DNA of 64,000 nucleotides, from the NCBI GenBank assembly GCA_902825775.1, contig CADECF010000009.1, positions 1 through 64,000 on the forward strand, in the 5' to 3' direction. Positions 29,128-58,078 of this stretch are shown in pieces. Position numbers and translations under genes: made by a program. Source of the stretch: an uncultured Lysobacteraceae bacterium (GTDB lineage: Bacteria; Pseudomonadota; Gammaproteobacteria; Xanthomonadales; Xanthomonadaceae). Position 1 is the stretch's first letter; each line of letters starts with the position of its first letter. A model generated the notes under the pieces. It saw only the letters and a program-made list of their open reading frames with translations, had not been told where the DNA came from and did not search any database.

Positions 29128-29277
29128 TTGTGGGAGCGGCTTTCGTGGGAGCGGCTTTTGTGGGAGCGGCTTCAGCCGCGAGCTTTTCAAGATACCGACG
29201 AAACCATATCAAGAGCTCGCGGCTGAAGCCGCTCCCACAAAAGCCGCTCCCACGAAAGCCGCTCCTACAAAAGCCGC
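29128..29277. repeat. Nested REP-like palindrome with triplicated ends
   Basis: Three tandem units of (TT)GTGGGAGCGGCTTT lead into a full REP arm. On the other side, the mirror arm is followed by CCGCTCCCACGAAAG and CCGCTCCTACAAAAG units. The whole 150 bases can fold into one long hairpin. It lies between the fpr stop and the convergent glutathione peroxidase stop. Confidence 0.9.
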
Positions 29278-34776: not shown

Positions 34777-37227
34777 TCACTCCAGCGCCACCAGAGCCTG
34801 CTTCGCGGCCTTGTTCCAGCCTTCCCAAACGGTCTTGCGCAGGCGCGAGGCGCGCGTCAATGCGCGTTGCATCGTGAATTCCGCGCCGGATTTTGTGCGT
34901 CCCAACTCGTCCCAGCGCAGCGGCATCGCCACGCCCGCGCCCGCGCGCGCGCGCAAGGACCAACTGGCCACGCTGGTCGCGCCGCGGCCGTTGCGCAGCC
35001 AATCGATGAAGATCACGCCCTGCCGTTTGGCCTTGCTGGCGGTGGCGACGTAGCGATCCGGCGTCTGCGTGGCCATCGCATCGGCGAAAGCCTCGCAGAA
35101 GGCTTTGGCCTGCTCCCAGCTCGGTCCGGGCTTGATCGGCAGCACGACATGCAGACCCTTGCCGCCGGACAGGCGCACGAAGCTCTGCATGCCGATTTCC
35201 TCCAGCCTTGCGCGCACATCGCGCGCCGCGGCGATCACGTCCTTCCATTTCACGCCGGGGCCGGGGTCCAGATCGAATACCAGCAGGTCAGGATGCTCGA
35301 CATCGTCGATGCGCGAACCCCAGGGATGCAGTTCCAGCGCATTCATCTGGACCAGATCGAGCAAGCCTTCGACATCTTCGATATAAAGATAATCGTCCTT
35401 GCCGCCATCCTTCTCGCGGATCGGAACGGCATGCACATTCGCGCCAAGCGTGCCGGCGTGGTGTTTTTGGAAGAAGCACTGGCCTTTCAAACCGTCGGGA
35501 CAGCGCAGCAACGACAAGGGGCGGCGCGCGATTTCCGGCAAAAGACGAGGCGCGATGGTCCGGTAGTAGTCCGCGACCATCTGTTTGGTGATGCCGCTCT
35601 CCGGATATATCTGCTTGTCGGGGCTGGTGAGGCGCTGTTCGGTATCTCCGCCGATGTCCTTCATGGCCTTGTCCTCGCGCAATCGGGTGAAACTGGCTTG
35701 GCGCAGCAGGCCCTCTTTGGCCCAGCCGCGGAATGCGACTTCCACGATGAGCTTGGGCTCCACCCAGGTCACCGTGCGTATCGACAACGGGATGTGCGGC
35801 GGCAAGTCGACGGTCGGCTGCTTGCGTTCGAGCTTGCGCAGGGCTTTGGCGAGGCTGCGCAGCATGCCGTCGTCGAAACCGGTACCCACGCGGCCGACAT
35901 ACTTCAAGCCGCCGCGTTGGCGCGTCGCCAGCAGCAACGAACCGAACCCGGTACGCGAATGCTTCGGCGCGGTGTAGCCGACCACGACGAATTCGTCGCC
36001 TTGCGCATGCTTGGCTTTGGTCCACGCATCCGAGCGGCCGCTGCTGTAGCGCGCCGACACGTTCTTGCTGATGATCCCTTCCATACCCTGCTTGGCGCTG
36101 GCCGCGAACACTTCGTCGCCGTGGCCGACGATATGCTGGCTATAGGCCAGGATGGGATCGCTTCCCTCCAACAGCGCTTCCAGCAATTGCTTGCGCTCGA
36201 TCAACCGCGTTCTGGCCAAGTCGACACGTTCCAGCGACGGCATATCGAAGAGCACATAGCGCAGCGTCGCGTTGGCCGTGCCGGCGATCGTATGCTGGAG
36301 CGCGGAAAAATCATCTCTTCCCTCCGCGTTCAGCGCGATCAGTTCGCCGTCCAGGTCGGCGTCGCTCACCCCTAGCGATTCCAACGCGGACACGATCTCC
36401 GGATAGTCCGCCGTCCAGTCCAGGTTCTTGCGCGAGCGCAGCTTGGCCTTGCCTTTTTCGATCCTGACGAGCAGGCGGTAGCCGTCCCACTTCAATTCGT
36501 GCAGCCAGGCATCGCCCGCTGGCGGCCCTTGCCGCAGCGTCGCCAATTGCGGCGCCGGCAGCGTGCGGTCGCGCAAGGCGCGTGCGCCCTCGATCGCCTG
36601 CGCGAGCCCGTGCCAGTCGCGCCTGCGTCTGCGCGGCGTTTTCTTCGACGCTTTCTTCGCGTCCGCCGCCTTGGTCGCTTTTTGTACGGTCTTCTTCGCG
36701 GTCTTGGCGTTCTTGCCGATCAGATCGTCGGCTTCTGCGTCGCGCGCGAACGCGTCCTGGCGTTTGATCAGCAGCCACTGCGGCTGACGCGCGCTTTTCG
36801 CGGTGCGCACGAGTTTCCAACCGCCGTTCAACTTGCCGCCATGCAGGACGAAATCGATCTTGCCCGCCGCCAGCGCTTCTAGGGGATCGCCGTTGGAACT
36901 CCATACGCCATGATCGAAGCGGTCGACGTGACCGGCGCCGTAATGTCCTTGCGGGATGTCGCCTTCGAAACCGGCGTAGCCGAGCGGATGGTCTTCCACT
37001 TCCACCGCCAGGCGCTTTTCGCCCGCACGCAGCGACGGGCCCTTGGGCACCGCCCAGCTCTTCAGCGTGCCGTCCATCTCCAGCCTGAAATCGTAATGCC
37101 GCGCGCGCGCATGATGCAGTTGCACCACGAAAGTCGGCCTATGCCCATGCCTGCCTACGCCGGCGTCTTCGGCGGGTTCCGGCGTCTGGCCGAACCGGCG
37201 TTTCTTGGCGTATTCGCGTAGGCTCAT
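34777..37227 (-). CDS. ligD: Multidomain DNA ligase D
   Basis: The 816-aa NHEJ enzyme has three domains in the Pseudomonas order. The phosphoesterase (about 30-160) has VVQLHHARARHYDFRLE. A Lys/Ala/Arg linker (170-205) leads to the ATP-dependent ligase (about 220-510), with adenylation Lys246 in ELKWDGYR. The polymerase/primase (about 540-810) has the metal pair FDLDPG (652-654), His693 and Asp742 in FIDWLRN. It joins double-strand breaks with Ku, filling or trimming ends. It begins 15 bases after the ku stop, in one transcript. Confidence 0.97.
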   Translation of the reverse strand: MSLREYAKKRRFGQTPEPAEDAGVGRHGHRPTFVVQLHHARARHYDFRLEMDGTLKSWAVPKGPSLRAGEKRLAVEVEDHPLGYAGFEGDIPQGHYGAGHVDRFDHGVWSSNGDPLEALAAGKIDFVLHGGKLNGGWKLVRTAKSARQPQWLLIKRQDAFARDAEADDLIGKNAKTAKKTVQKATKAADAKKASKKTPRRRRRDWHGLAQAIEGARALRDRTLPAPQLATLRQGPPAGDAWLHELKWDGYRLLVRIEKGKAKLRSRKNLDWTADYPEIVSALESLGVSDADLDGELIALNAEGRDDFSALQHTIAGTANATLRYVLFDMPSLERVDLARTRLIERKQLLEALLEGSDPILAYSQHIVGHGDEVFAASAKQGMEGIISKNVSARYSSGRSDAWTKAKHAQGDEFVVVGYTAPKHSRTGFGSLLLATRQRGGLKYVGRVGTGFDDGMLRSLAKALRKLERKQPTVDLPPHIPLSIRTVTWVEPKLIVEVAFRGWAKEGLLRQASFTRLREDKAMKDIGGDTEQRLTSPDKQIYPESGITKQMVADYYRTIAPRLLPEIARRPLSLLRCPDGLKGQCFFQKHHAGTLGANVHAVPIREKDGGKDDYLYIEDVEGLLDLVQMNALELHPWGSRIDDVEHPDLLVFDLDPGPGVKWKDVIAAARDVRARLEEIGMQSFVRLSGGKGLHVVLPIKPGPSWEQAKAFCEAFADAMATQTPDRYVATASKAKRQGVIFIDWLRNGRGATSVASWSLRARAGAGVAMPLRWDELGRTKSGAEFTMQRALTRASRLRKTVWEGWNKAAKQALVALE

Positions 37228-37242
37228 GCGCGACGCGTGGGG

Positions 37243-38151
37243 TCAGGCCGATTTCCGCTTTCGCGCGGGCGTCTTGCGCGCTTTAGCCGCTTTCTTCGCC
37301 GTCTTGCGCGGCGCTTTCTTAGCGGCGGCTTTCTTCTTGGCGGGCGTGCGCTTGTTGCGGTCGATGCTCTGCTGCAGCAGCGACATGAAGTCGACCACGT
37401 TGGTCGCCGCGTTCTCGGCGACTTCCTGATCGTCCTCTTCCTTCTTGGCCACCACGCCCTTGCTCTTCATTCGCTTCTTGATGACCGCGTGCAGCCGGGA
37501 CCTGAATTCGTCCTTGTATTGCGACGGTGCCCAGTCATCGGACATGCTGTTGATCAACTGTTCGGAGAATTCCTTCTCCTTCGCGGTGATTCGGTATTCG
37601 GACGGCTTGCCTTCCGGGATGTTGTATTCCTCCACGTCGACCAGCTCCTGCGGGTAGCGCATCATCAGCAACAACAACGCGTCGCCTTGCGGAACGACCG
37701 CGCACAGATGCTCGCGCGTGCGTATGACTACGCGTGCGACACCGATTTTCTTGGTGCTGGCCAGCGCCTCGCGCAGCAGCACGTAGCCTTTCTCGGCTTT
37801 TTTGGCCGGCACCAGCACGTAAGGCTTCTCGAAGTACTGCGGGCCGATCGCGTCCGCGTCGACGAAGGCTTCCACGTCGATCGCACCATGGCTCTCCGGC
37901 GCGGCCGACTTGATGTCCTCCTGCTCCAGGACCACGTAGCTGCCCTTGTCGTATTCGAAGGCCTTGACGATATCCTTCCAGGCCACTTCCTCGCCGGTCT
38001 CGGCGTTGATCCGCTCGTAGCGGATCGGCGAGTTGTCGCGCGAATCCAACATGCGAAACTGGATGTCGGTGCGCTTTTCGCCCGACATCAGTTGGACCGG
38101 AATATTCAGCAAGCCGAACGAAAGGGTGCCGTTCCAGACAGGACGTGCCAT
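37243..38151 (-). CDS. ku: Ku double-strand-break end-binding protein
   Basis: The 302-aa homodimeric Ku binds broken DNA ends and recruits LigD. It starts ARPVWNGTLSFGLLNIPVQL, the usual bacterial Ku opening, and contains DIVKAFEYDKGSYVVLE and EYRITAKEKEFSEQLI. After the core (about 1-255) comes a highly basic Lys/Ala/Arg tail (about 270-302), which in other species threads Ku onto DNA and helps ligation. GGAGG is 7 bases before the ATG at 38151. It is upstream of ligD and downstream of lhr, all on one strand. Confidence 0.97.
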   Translation of the reverse strand: MARPVWNGTLSFGLLNIPVQLMSGEKRTDIQFRMLDSRDNSPIRYERINAETGEEVAWKDIVKAFEYDKGSYVVLEQEDIKSAAPESHGAIDVEAFVDADAIGPQYFEKPYVLVPAKKAEKGYVLLREALASTKKIGVARVVIRTREHLCAVVPQGDALLLLMMRYPQELVDVEEYNIPEGKPSEYRITAKEKEFSEQLINSMSDDWAPSQYKDEFRSRLHAVIKKRMKSKGVVAKKEEDDQEVAENAATNVVDFMSLLQQSIDRNKRTPAKKKAAAKKAPRKTAKKAAKARKTPARKRKSA

Positions 38152-38295
38152 CTCGAGCCTCCGGCGGCGACCGATACGGCCGCCGTTCAATCGCCGCAGT
38201 ATCGGTACGACGGCGTGATGCGGCCGTTGACTCGTGTGTTAGGTTTTTGTGAGGGGATCGAGCCGTCGGCTCGCGCATGCGTAGCAGCGGTTTTT

Positions 38296-38388
38296 TGTGG
38301 GAGCAGCTTTTGTGGGAGCGGCTTTAGCCGCGAGCTTTTCCGGTCCAACGCAGCACCAATAGCTCGCGACTAAAGTCGCTCCCACAAA
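38296..38388. repeat. REP-like inverted pair between lhr and ku
   Basis: A tandem TTGTGGGAGCAGC and TTGTGGGAGCGGCTTTAGCCG (38296-38332) faces CGACTAAAGTCGCTCCCACAA. The right arm has drifted. Sitting after lhr, it may uncouple lhr from ku transcription. Confidence 0.87.
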
Positions 38389-38401: not shown

Positions 38402-41400
38402 CTACAGAGCGGATACCGGCAGGCTTGGAAAAACGGAGTCCGGTTCGCGCAACAGCGCCTTGCGTGCGGCGCGTTCCTCTTCCGGAGTCAGCGTGGCGAG
38501 CAACTCGATCTGGCCTGCGCTCAAGGTCGCCAGCGGCACGCCGTCGCGATACAGCACGCGCGATCCGGTCAGGCGCGGCAGCTTGCTGCCCGGCAACATG
38601 GTGCCGACCAGGTTGAGCGGATCGGCGGCGGACAGGCAGATCAGCCCGCCGTCGTGGGCGCGTTGCCGTACCTGACGCATCAGGCCGATGGCCTCGGGCA
38701 ATGCGAACTGCTCGCCCGACAGACCGGCGATGAATCGGCCGCCGCGGATTTCGCCGCGCGCTTCCAGGCGATGGTAAACGCGCAGCAGCTCGCGCCACGG
38801 CGGCAGCCAGGACGCTTCGCGCTCAAGCAGGCGCCAGCAGACCACGCCGTAGCGGCGCAGCAGCACGCGGGCGATGTGCTCGACCGCTTCCGGGTCGGAC
38901 TTGCCGTTCGCCGCAACGGGTCCGCCGCGGCGGATCGTAGCCCAGCGGCCCGCATCCTCGATGCCGAACAGCGCGGCGCGGCGGCGGCGATGCGGGGACG
39001 CGCTCGGGCGCTTGGACGCCGGCACCAGCAGCGCGCGCAGGCCGGCGTAGCTGTCGCAATGCACGCGTCCGCGCGCGACCAGTTCGGCCAGCGCATCCTC
39101 CAATTCGGTGCGCAGCAGATGCGCGCCGGATACCAGTTCGTCGAAGAACGAGGCGCCGTGCTCGGCCAGATAGTCGGCGACGAGTTGCGCGCGCGAAGAC
39201 AACGTGTCTTCGGCGGCGTGTTCCGGCACGAACTTGGTCCATGCGGCCGCTTGCTTGCGCGGCAACAGCACGATCGGTGTGGCGCGCACAGGCGTACTAC
39301 CGCGGCTGCCGCTGGTGTCGCCGGAACTCACCCGCAGCCGCGTCCACATCGTGCGGCCGGCCGTGCACAGATCGTCCAGCCAGGAGATCGAATAATCCTT
39401 GACGCGCGCCGGCAGCAGTTCGGATTCCCAGGACGCCGCCGGCGCCTCGAAACCTTCCAGTTGCGCCAGCACGCCGGCCAGCGCTTCGGGGCCGCTGACG
39501 CGCGTAGCCGGGCTGACGCGCTGCCAGTCGAACAGGAAACGCATGAAGTCGCGCAGTTCGACAGGTTCGATCTCGCGACGCAGGCGCTTGAGCGTGTAGC
39601 GGTGGATCCGCGCCAGCAGATGCCGTTCGCACCACTCGTCGACGCCGATACCGGGCGTGAAGCGGCCTTGCATCACATAGCCTTGGCTCTGCAGGCGCAA
39701 GAGCGCCATCTCGACTTCCGGCTGCGGTATCGAAAGCGTCTCAGCCAAATCCGCGGCTGGCGTCGGGCCCAGGCCGGTCAGGCGCGAACGCAGCAGTTCC
39801 ACCGCCGCATCTTCGCGCGTCCAGGCTTGCTGTGCGTATTCGCCGGGCGCTTCGATATGAGGTTGCAATGCTGCATCCGGATGTAGCGCGTGCAACTGTG
39901 GGAGGCGTTCTGCGGCGATCCACAACTCATGATCAAACCCATCCCCACCCAACCCTCCCCTTGAAGGGGAGGGCTTTAGAGCCGCAGCGTCTTGCTCCCT
40001 CCCCTTCAAGGGGAGGACTGGGGTGGGGATGGGTTTGCGTTCAAGCCTGGTAGCGCGGTGATCCTTCGCTAGCCGATGCAACCACTCGACCCATCCATTG
40101 CGATCCGCCTCGCCGCTTGTCACTACACCGAGCCCCATCAACGCCTCGTGCATCTCGTCGGCATTGCGAACTTCCGGCCAGGCTTCCTCGCGCACCGCGT
40201 CGATCGCATCGATATCGAGCCGGCCCAGATCGTCGGCGCTCTGCGGATCGGCGTAACGGCGAGTCTGCACCGCCTGCGTGCGGCGCTCTTCCAGCGGCGC
40301 GTCGTCGAGGAAGGCGTAAGGGCGCGCGTTCAAGGCTTCGGCGGCGAACGGCGACGGCGCGGTCAGGTCTCGCGCGGTGACCTGCACCTTGCCCGATTCC
40401 AGCGCGCGCAGCAGCTCCAGCCAACCGTCGACGTCCATCGCTTCGTGCAGGCAGTCGTGCATGGTCTGCGCGACCAGCGGGTGGTCGGGCACCTGGCGTT
40501 CGCCGACGATGTTTTCCAGGCAGGCGACCTGGTCGGGGAACACCGTCGCCAGCAGATCCTCGGACTTCATCCGCTGCAGTTGCGGCGGCGTTTTCTTGCC
40601 GCCGGTGAAGCGCGGCAAGGCCAGCGCGGTGGTCGCGTTCCAGCGCCAGCGCACGCCGAACAGCGGTGCATCCAGCAAGGCCTGGATCAGCACATGTTCG
40701 GCCGAAGCCGAATGCAGGTAACTCGCGACTTCGATCAGCGGGAAGCTGTGGCTCGTGGAGAGCGACAGCACGATCGCGTCCTCGGTCGCGGCCGCCTGCA
40801 ATTCGAAATTGAACTGGCGGCAGAAGCGTTTGCGCAGCGCGAGGCCCCAGGCGCGGTTGATGCGGCTGCCGTAAGGCGTGTGGATCACCAGCTGGGTGCC
40901 GCCGGATTCGTCGAAGAAACGCTCCAGCAAGATGTTTTCCTGGGTCGGCATCGTCCCGAGCGAAATCGCGGTGGCGCCGAGATAGTCGACGAGTTGGTGC
41001 GCGGCTTCCGGCGGTAGGCCGAGTTTGTCCGTTAGCCATTGTCGGGTCGGGCCTAGAGCAAATCCCCCCTGCTCCCCTTTTTCAAAGGGGGGAACAGCCG
41101 AGGCTTCGGTAAGCGCAGCAGCATCGGCACCTTCGCTGCTGTTCTCCCCCCTTTGAAAAAGGGGGGTCGGGGGGGATTTGCTCTCAGCGCCGCCATCGTT
41201 CCGCAACCGCTCCACCACCTCTTCGCGCAGCCGCGACACCGCGAACGACAATTCATCGGTACGGCCGGGTGCCTCGCCCAACCAGAAAGGAATGCTGGGC
41301 GGCGCGCCGTCGGCATCCTCCACGCGTACCCGTCCCGGCTCGACGCGGATGATGCGATAGCTGGTATTGCCGAGCTGGAAGATATCGCCGGCCATGCTTT

Positions 41401-43006
41401 CGACCGCGAAATCCTCGTTCACCGTGCCGACGTTCTGCGCCTGCGGCTCGAGGATGACGGTGTAATCGCTGGTGTCGGGAATGGTGCCGCCGGACATCAG
41501 CGCGGTCATGCGCCCGCCCTTGCGGCCGCGCAGCTTGCGGTTGACCGCGTCGCGGTGCAGATAACCGGCGCGAGGTCCGCGGCGCGTGCTGAAACCATCG
41601 GCCAGCATGCGCACCACGTCGTCGTAGTCCTTGCGCGACAGATCGGCATAAGGCCAGGCGCGGCGCGACCATTCGAAGAGCGCGTCCTCGTCCCACTCGC
41701 GGCAGGAGACTTCGGCGACGATCTGCTGCGCCAGCACGTCCAGCGGCGCGCGCGGCATGATCAGCGCGTCGAGCTCGCCGCGGCGCACGCCATCGAGCAA
41801 CGCCGCGCATTCGACCAGTTCGTCGCGGGTCTGCGGGAACAGCCGGCCTTTGGGCACGCCGCCGACATGGTGGCCCGCGCGGCCGACGCGCTGCAGGAAC
41901 GCGGCGATCGAACGCGGCGAACCGAGCTGGCAGACGAGGTCGACGTCGCCGATATCGATGCCCAGTTCCAGCGACGCCGTGCACACCAGCACGCGCAGAT
42001 CGCCGCGCTTGAGTTTCTGTTCCGCATCCAGGCGGATTTCCTTGGCGAGGCTGCCGTGGTGCGCGGCGACCGCGTCCTTGCCGAGCAGTTCGCCGAGTTC
42101 GCGCGAAGCGCGTTCGGCCATGCGCCGCGTGTTGACGAACACCAGCGTGGTGCGATGCTGGGCGACGAGGTCGGCGAGCCTGGCGAATACCTGGCTCCAC
42201 TGGTCGCCGGACATCACCGCGCTCAACGGCGTCGGCGGCAGTTCCAGGGCCAGGTCGCGCTGCTTGGCGTGGCCGATGTCGACGATTTCGCATTCGGGCG
42301 CGCCGTCCTGCGATACGGCACCGGCGCCGACCAGAAAACGCGCGACTTCGTCGATCGGTTTTTGCGTGGCCGATACGCCGATGCGCGTCAGGCGGCGGCC
42401 GCACAAGGCTTCCAGCCGTTCCAGCGACAGTGTCAAGTGGCTGCCGCGCTTGCTGCCGACCATCGCGTGGATTTCGTCGACGATCACCGTGCGCACGGTG
42501 CCGAGCATCGCCCTGCCCGATTCGGAACCGAGCAGCACATACAAAGATTCGGGCGTGGTGACCAGGATGTGCGGCGGCTTGCGGCGCAGCGATGCGCGCT
42601 CGGATTGCGGCGTGTCGCCGGTGCGCACTGCGGTACGGATTTCGATGTCCGGCAGGCCCATGCGCTCGAGTTCGGCGCGGATGCCGGCCAGCGGCGCTTC
42701 GAGGTTGATCCGGATATCGTTGGACAAGGCCTTCAGCGGCGACACATAGACCACCGTGGTCTGATCCGGCAGCGCGGACTGCTGACCCAGCAGATCGCTG
42801 CCGCCTTGCGCCAGGCCTTCGCGGATCAGGCCATCGATCGCGGTCATGAACGCAGTCAGCGTTTTGCCCGAACCGGTCGGCGCCGCCACCAGCGTATTGC
42901 GGCCGCTGCGGATCGCCGGCCACGCCGCGACCTGCACCGGCGTGGGCGCCGGGAACGCGTTGCGGAACCAGTTGGCGACCGCGGGGTGGAAGGCTTCTAG
43001 CGGCAT
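38402..43006 (-). CDS. lhr: Large ATP-dependent helicase Lhr
   Basis: The 1534-aa helicase has two RecA domains. Motif I is APTGSGKT (42-49), motif II DEIH (177-180), and motif VI-type [12 protein letters not shown] follows near 400. After these come the winged-helix and Lhr-specific C-terminal domains (E. coli Lhr 1538 aa). It translocates 3'-5' on single-stranded DNA in repair. Two palindromic repeats sit in frame: residues about 608-651 (PTPLFQRGE...[11 protein letters not shown]) and about 990-1024 ([11 protein letters not shown]...[11 protein letters not shown]). They keep the frame open. ATG at 43006 is chosen by homology; TTG at 43072 is the farthest start. Confidence 0.94.
39935..40036. 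repeat. Palindromic element inside lhr (inner copy)
   Basis: AAACCCATCCCCACCCAACC and GGACTGGGGTGGGGATGGGT arms enclose two CCTCCCCTTCAAGGGGAGG hairpins. It is translated as part of Lhr with no stop. The sequence is typical of intergenic repeats, not of helicase coding DNA. Confidence 0.85.
41055..41184. repeat. Palindromic element inside lhr (outer copy)
   Basis: Arms AGAGCAAATCCCCCCTGCTC and GGTCGGGGGGGATTTGCTCT are near mirror images, with inner CCCCTTTTTCAAAGGGGGG hairpins. A related intergenic copy is at 57975-58078. Its 43-residue translation is part of the Lhr chain. Confidence 0.88.
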
Positions 43007-43158
43007 CGGAAGATTATGGCGCCCGACGGGAATCTGGAATGGGGAAAATCGGGCCGATTGCGGCGAAATCAATCGGATGACCTTGTTCTGAAAGGCGTGT
43101 CGAGCCTATGCAACGGCGGTCTCACGGTCTGAGACCCGGCCGCGGACAGCTGAATGCT

Positions 43159-57974: not shown

Positions 57975-58078
57975 AGCAAATCCCCCTGTGTCCCCTTTTT
58001 CAAATGGGGAGAAATCAAAAGCGCGGCCGTGTGCCGTTCTTCCCCCTTCGAAAAAGGGGGATCGAGGGGGATTTGCTT
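57975..58078. repeat. Palindromic element, AAATCCCCC family
   Basis: Arms AGCAAATCCCCCTGTGTCCC and GGGATCGAGGGGGATTTGCT, with inner CCCCTTTTTCAAATGGGG and CCCCCTTCGAAAAAGGGGG hairpins. It is related to the copy inside lhr (41055-41184). The 57930-58316 stretch holds this element, the next repeat and no gene. Confidence 0.88.

Follow-up and report, generated by a model that had tools for sequence, protein, structure and literature searches.

The lhr gene at this locus raises the question of how two palindromic segments came to lie inside the coding sequence of a large helicase-related protein. The window, i.e., the whole stretch of 64,000 nucleotides that was analysed, carries lhr on the minus strand, at positions 38402-43006 with an ATG start or at 38402-43072 with a TTG start, the frame being open back to that codon. 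Homology starts close to the ATG at 43006, which is residue 23 in the numbering used here, counted from the TTG at 43072. The protein has the domain order of long-form Lhr, namely DEAD (residues 44-239), Helicase_C (297-401), WH_Lhr (428-591), DEAD_assoc (708-910), WH3_Lhr (1177-1244) and WH4_Lhr (1394-1474). It also matches NCBIfam models of ATP-dependent helicases, the best of them below their own curated cut-offs, and it has PDB relatives, 7lhl and 5v9x. Directly 3' of the lhr stop codon is a pair of REPs that belong to a third family (GTGGGAGCGGC..., 38309-38388), and REPs of this kind also occur within lhr of genomes G001 and G015. Farther downstream (34777-38190) are open reading frames of 816 and 315 amino acids, which we take to resemble LigD and Ku, and six copies of the GTGGGAG/GTAGGAG motif, three in each orientation, are clustered at 29130-29268.

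The first segment, element A, occupies 41055-41184 of the minus strand and corresponds to residues 630-673, in the interval that separates WH_Lhr from DEAD_assoc. An inverted-repeat search places its arms at 41055-41092, with the GCAAAT end outwards, and at 41147-41184, with the ATTTGC end outwards; they are 82% complementary across 38 nt. Element B, at 39934-40037 on the same strand (residues 1012-1047), is between DEAD_assoc and WH3_Lhr, and its arms (39934-39969 and 40002-40037) are 75% complementary across 36 nt and 87% across the inner 31 nt. The predicted fold of the coding-strand RNA is -86.8 kcal/mol for A, compared with -48.3 for shuffles (z -9.7), and -89.9 kcal/mol for B, compared with -45.8 (z -10.9); none of 200 shuffles equalled either value. 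Both elements keep the reading frame and contain no stop codon. The first-pass annotation described the two segments as palindromic repeats translated in frame within lhr, and the arms, the folds, the open frame and the multicopy matches described below bear this out. In the AlphaFold model, A is a coil joining two helices (pLDDT 26-42, and 68 at one end, with flanks of 90-95) and B is a coil joining two beta strands (pLDDT 46-74, flanks 97-98). To judge from these models, A and B are probably read as extra, floppy loops of Lhr, and the low confidence of both agrees with the earlier guess that the peptides form exposed loops.

Both elements belong to families that are dispersed in the genome. 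Family A has at least 120 matching pieces in the 3.76 Mb (40 of 103 candidate places were scored) and family B has 37. The 444 kb that were read, which comprise the window, the surroundings of the A and B matches and five control stretches, contain at least 44 A loci and at least 12 B loci, and the arms in lhr are 82-100% identical to dispersed copies. The match reported earlier to an intergenic element at 57975-58077 holds for A, with 86% and 89% identity on its two arms, which are arranged as in the lhr copy. Both segments are dispersed repeats, but each has its own family, and only A matches this element.

Each arm of family A spans about 42 nt and in a common form consists of GCTGTT followed by CCCCCCTTTGAAAAAGGGGGG and CAGGGGGGATTTGCT. 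The arms mostly form inverted pairs in one of two arrangements. The ATTTGC ends point outwards in the copies in lhr, in gltB and at 57975; of the 22 full-length copies that were inspected, most have the GCTGTT ends on the outside. The middles vary and some contain other repeats; for example, GTGGGAG/GTAGGAG REP pairs lie between both A arms at loci L070, L071, L072, L077, L097 and L112 (7792-8000). At three other loci (L078 3001-3205, L081 2983-3199 and L087 3037-3232), an arm of family A has a second palindromic repeat, with GCAAGCC..GGCTTGC and CGCTTCGCGATT parts, nested in it, apparently at one common internal place. The same nested repeat also appears, from the sequence, to lie in frame in hrpA (L231) and priA (L219) of G003.

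Copies at the same place in two genomes were compared in ten cases, involving G003, G001 and other relatives and including the gltB copy. The arms had diverged by 0-14% and the 150-bp flanks by 4-27% where they were well aligned; the middles had diverged by about 50% in four comparisons and by 9-21% in four. The arms of both families are poor in stop codons: on average, 4.82 of the six frames are open across a 42-nt arm of A and 4.62 across one of B. Whole B copies have 2.12 open frames, hardly more than the 1.81 of shuffles. Among ten genomes searched, family A is multicopy in G001, G003, G018 and G019 and has four pieces in G002; the other five had no piece.

Sixty relatives were searched for lhr, and the 28 with a full or mostly full gene were aligned. 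The first-pass annotation had proposed such an alignment as the way to recognise an insertion, and the columns of A are empty in all 28 relatives while the flanks align. Among these 28, no distant genus had the same segments in that position. The relatives whose rows are closest to that of the window (G003, G001, G002, L126 and L134) have short linkers at site A. The sister species G003, with an Lhr that is 94% identical, is without A and has a shortened B. In G002 B is missing, and in G001 its place is taken by a palindrome of the GTGGGAG type. Relative to the lhr of G003, A adds 45 codons, and relative to that of G002, B adds 29. Genome G026, from another genus of the same family, has an 84-residue insert at site A that includes A-like arms in a different alignment column; this insert has three matching pieces in its own genome including itself, i.e., two further partial matches. 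Together with the dispersed copies, these results support the earlier reading of A and B as translated repeat insertions.

The inserts of the window are part of a wider pattern. An alignment of 109 Lhr proteins (that of the window, those of the 28 relatives and those of the 80 best-scoring named loci) has inserts of at least 18 residues at position 254 in 25 proteins, at 625-672 in 27, at 1013-1047 in 14 and at 1388 in 15; each of these sites lies between Pfam domains. Minor groups are found at 224 (two proteins), 1134 (two) and 1285 (one). After two duplicate rows were dropped, 107 proteins and 79 inserts at the four main sites remained, and the inserts were compared with control segments matched to them in length and drawn from the genes that carry them. 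Folding with ViennaRNA (DNA parameters, 60 shuffles) gave z scores below -2.5 for 31 of the 79 inserts and one of the 79 controls. One of four repeat motifs, which we wrote ourselves, in part from the sequences, matched 25 inserts and one control. By either criterion, 38 inserts and two controls are repeat-like. The remaining 41 of the 79 inserts are not, and therefore the same linkers also accept ordinary length variation. A blastn search of the inserts against the locus flanks separated them poorly at E 1e-3 (25 of 79 inserts, 14 of 79 controls) and gave 18 inserts and no control at E 1e-6, a cut-off picked after the list had been seen.

The repeats at these sites are of several kinds. GTGGGAG-type inserts are found in G001 (site B) and G015 (254), GTAG-type inserts in G026 (site B) and in L141 and L179 (site A), and CCCTCTCCCC-type inserts in the Dyella and Rhodanobacter rows, and Lhr of G030 has a B-like element with internal duplications at 254. 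Such inserts can be multicopy in their own genomes: with the insert itself counted, there are at least 66 matching pieces in Dyella halodurans, at least 99 in Stutzerimonas stutzeri (40 candidates were scored in each) and 47 in G030. Since unrelated repeats of relatives occupy the same spots, the joints between domains look like places where repeats can both land and survive. The Lhr of G055 (L061) presents a separate case, in which the inserts at 254, 1013-1047 and 1388 have peptide stretches in common (e.g., SPGPSSDP and PEGR). These three may represent one repeat family; as their folds are unremarkable (z -0.7, -1.3 and -2.5), they may be old.

Hairpins were also counted in 78 named loci, which do not include the window. 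At a score of at least 16 there are 12 hairpins in 348 kb of lhr, four in 607 kb of other open reading frames (of at least 200 codons) and 51 in 241 kb outside open reading frames, so that the density of such hairpins in lhr is five times that in the other frames of the same loci (P 0.003). Ten of the 12 in lhr fall in the four sites, which on average make up 7.9% of the gene (P 5e-10). The P values for lhr versus other frames are 0.008, 0.003, 0.012, 0.044 and 0.11 at scores of 14, 16, 18, 20 and 22, respectively; the counts behind the excess are small, and at the top threshold (five versus two) it is lost. A looser count gave 44 hairpins in 348 kb of lhr and 50 in 644 kb of other frames (P 0.03 and 0.02 for two groups).

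We consider it probable, at roughly 80%, that A and B are dispersed repeats that were inserted in lhr, are translated with it and have been kept in tolerant loops between its domains. The data above show that A and B are repeats, that they were inserted and are in frame, and that repeat-like inserts recur between the domains of Lhr; how they arrive and persist is the proposed part. Insertion of repeats of this type, in which two arms of about 42 nt usually form an inverted pair, is probably blind to the reading frame. As nearly five of the six frames of an arm are open, an insertion of a length that suits the frame would often leave the gene readable, and the copies that survive selection would be those that are in frame at points where a flexible loop rich in Pro and Gly does no harm to the protein. 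In Lhr, such points would be the four linkers between folded domains, so that unrelated families could settle there in different lineages. The loop peptide most likely has no selected function.

The copies of family A in other genes bear on this explanation. Four of the 44 A loci, those in lhr, gltB, priA and hrpA, have a coding signal on both sides and one frame across the element. In anmK, a single arm corresponds to residues 50-66, inside an NCBIfam match that starts at residue 27, and the codon scores are weak. At L087 the element is flanked by coding signal left and right, but no frame crosses it, and we regard the frames that cross the copies at L065, L070 and L090 as non-coding over the element. 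For family B, the lhr copy is the only one of 12 loci with a coding signal on both sides and one frame across; at L107 there is a weak frame of 249 amino acids with scores of 0.07 and 0.11. The gltB insert is common to G003 and G001, and seven of nine aligned relatives have no insert. At the priA site, G003 has a longer insert, G001 has about one arm and the other ten of 12 aligned relatives have none. The hrpA insert is also present in G003 and G001, and a stretch in G002 may be a decayed copy; elsewhere this site has short linkers in some relatives and longer, unlike ones in G018, G019, G013 and G055.

In all seven comparisons, the inserts of gltB, hrpA and priA have at least as much nonsynonymous change as the rest of the gene, and therefore the peptides of translated A copies do not appear to be held. 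The values are 0.10, 0.10 and 0.06 in the gltB insert versus 0.03, 0.07 and 0.06 in the rest (P 0.004, 0.25 and 0.81), 0.26, 0.16 and 0.24 versus 0.04, 0.07 and 0.08 in hrpA, and 0.21 versus 0.05 in priA, where the alignment is poor.

A further reading, doubtful and with only a small chance in its favour, is that the interdomain linkers of Lhr, possibly together with those of HrpA and PriA, form a general hot spot at which unrelated palindromic repeats are captured repeatedly throughout the proteobacteria, the hairpins being kept at the level of nucleic acid, by ribosome pausing at domain borders or by a role in DNA, and not for the peptide. A narrower and unlikely proposal is that selection retains the hairpins in the mRNA, where they would slow the ribosome at domain borders and aid the stepwise folding of Lhr domains; if pausing were useful there, different palindromes would come to occupy the same interdomain sites. 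The interdomain position of all four sites and the great stability of the A and B hairpins fit this proposal, as does synonymous change in the gltB insert, which is 3/26.5, 2/26.0 and 5/26.8 sites (pS 0.08-0.19) versus 29%, 37% and 34% in the rest of the gene (Fisher P 0.05, 0.0015 and 0.10). However, synonymous change is little lowered in hrpA (0.32, 0.31 and 0.23 versus 0.35, 0.44 and 0.42) and higher in the poorly aligned priA insert (0.49 versus 0.34), and the arms of extragenic A copies are about as conserved as those in gltB. Moreover, 82 of the 107 Lhr proteins do without a repeat-like insert, and only 25 have at least one. A constraint on the DNA of translated copies, hinted at by gltB, weakly by hrpA and not by priA, is therefore not claimed here.

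Alternatively, each site might have received one old insertion, which was then lost in most lineages. The A-like repeat of G026 at site A would suit such a history, and partly deleted copies do exist (B in G003, and the priA copy of G001, of which about one arm is left). That different lineages have unlike families at one site argues against it, and so do the minimum numbers of changes, i.e., gains or losses, of repeat-like inserts, which are 10, 11 and 6 at three sites and 3 at the fourth on one FastTree tree of the 107 rows (support below 80 for 22 of 104 inner branches). A single old insertion per site is thus very unlikely, and independent insertions would, judged from the sequences, need fewer steps. 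That the segments are native, fast-evolving linkers of Lhr, palindromic by chance or local duplication, has next to no chance: the length does vary at the four sites even without repeats, but the dispersed copies that match the arms and the 94% identical Lhr of G003 without A contradict this.

If A and B are indeed translated repeats in tolerant loops, free-living bacteria repeatedly gain new protein loops from passive or selfish repeats. The four joints of one helicase, filled in some relatives and empty in others, amount to a natural experiment in which the tolerance of linkers and the action of such hairpins in mRNA become testable.

An enzyme that mobilises A and B presumably exists; a search of the genome with Pfam PF01797 (Y1 transposases) found none for either. 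Two Y1 transposase genes score above the Pfam cut-off, and we assume that they are RAYTs. Their flanks hold GTGGGAG/GTAGGAG and GTAGAGC repeats, other than A or B, and we rejected them as mobilisers of the two elements. At L205 (about 1910-2340), a Y1 transposase gene adjoins a dense array of GTGGGAG-type REPs that is interrupted by a run of N.

In a search of mainly open literature, no published repeats in Lhr, no printed A or B motifs and no report of repeated colonisation of the same sites of Lhr were found. The kind of element, nevertheless, is already known from Rickettsia palindromic elements and intragenic REPs. Like miniature elements of the MITE type, A and B have terminal inverted repeats, are dispersed and contain no gene. 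No matching transposase was seen, and the one comparison for target duplication, of A with G003, has diverged flanks and shows none.

The Rickettsia palindromic elements are palindromes of 105-146 bp that occur between genes and in frame within conserved genes (PMC2229807). A and B resemble them in having intergenic copies and in-frame insertions in conserved genes, so that the likeness drawn in the first-pass annotation holds by analogy of behaviour. They belong to another lineage, and the frame in which A is read differs between priA and hrpA. REPs with GTAG or CGTC tags that lie within genes are also comparable. According to the text of PMC3733652, in which Lhr occurs 0 times, many of them lie in genes of DNA synthesis and repair, more than half are dimers or groups, and recB of X. 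campestris and X. oryzae has different REPs at about one site. The ends of the units here, by inspection GCTGTT and ATTTGCT for A and AAGCCC and GGGTTTG for B, carry no GTAG or CGTC tag, so that A and B are not members of these families. The likeness lies in REPs within genes, different ones of which share about one site; the difference, apart from the tag, is that here they do so at four sites of one gene and in many genera.
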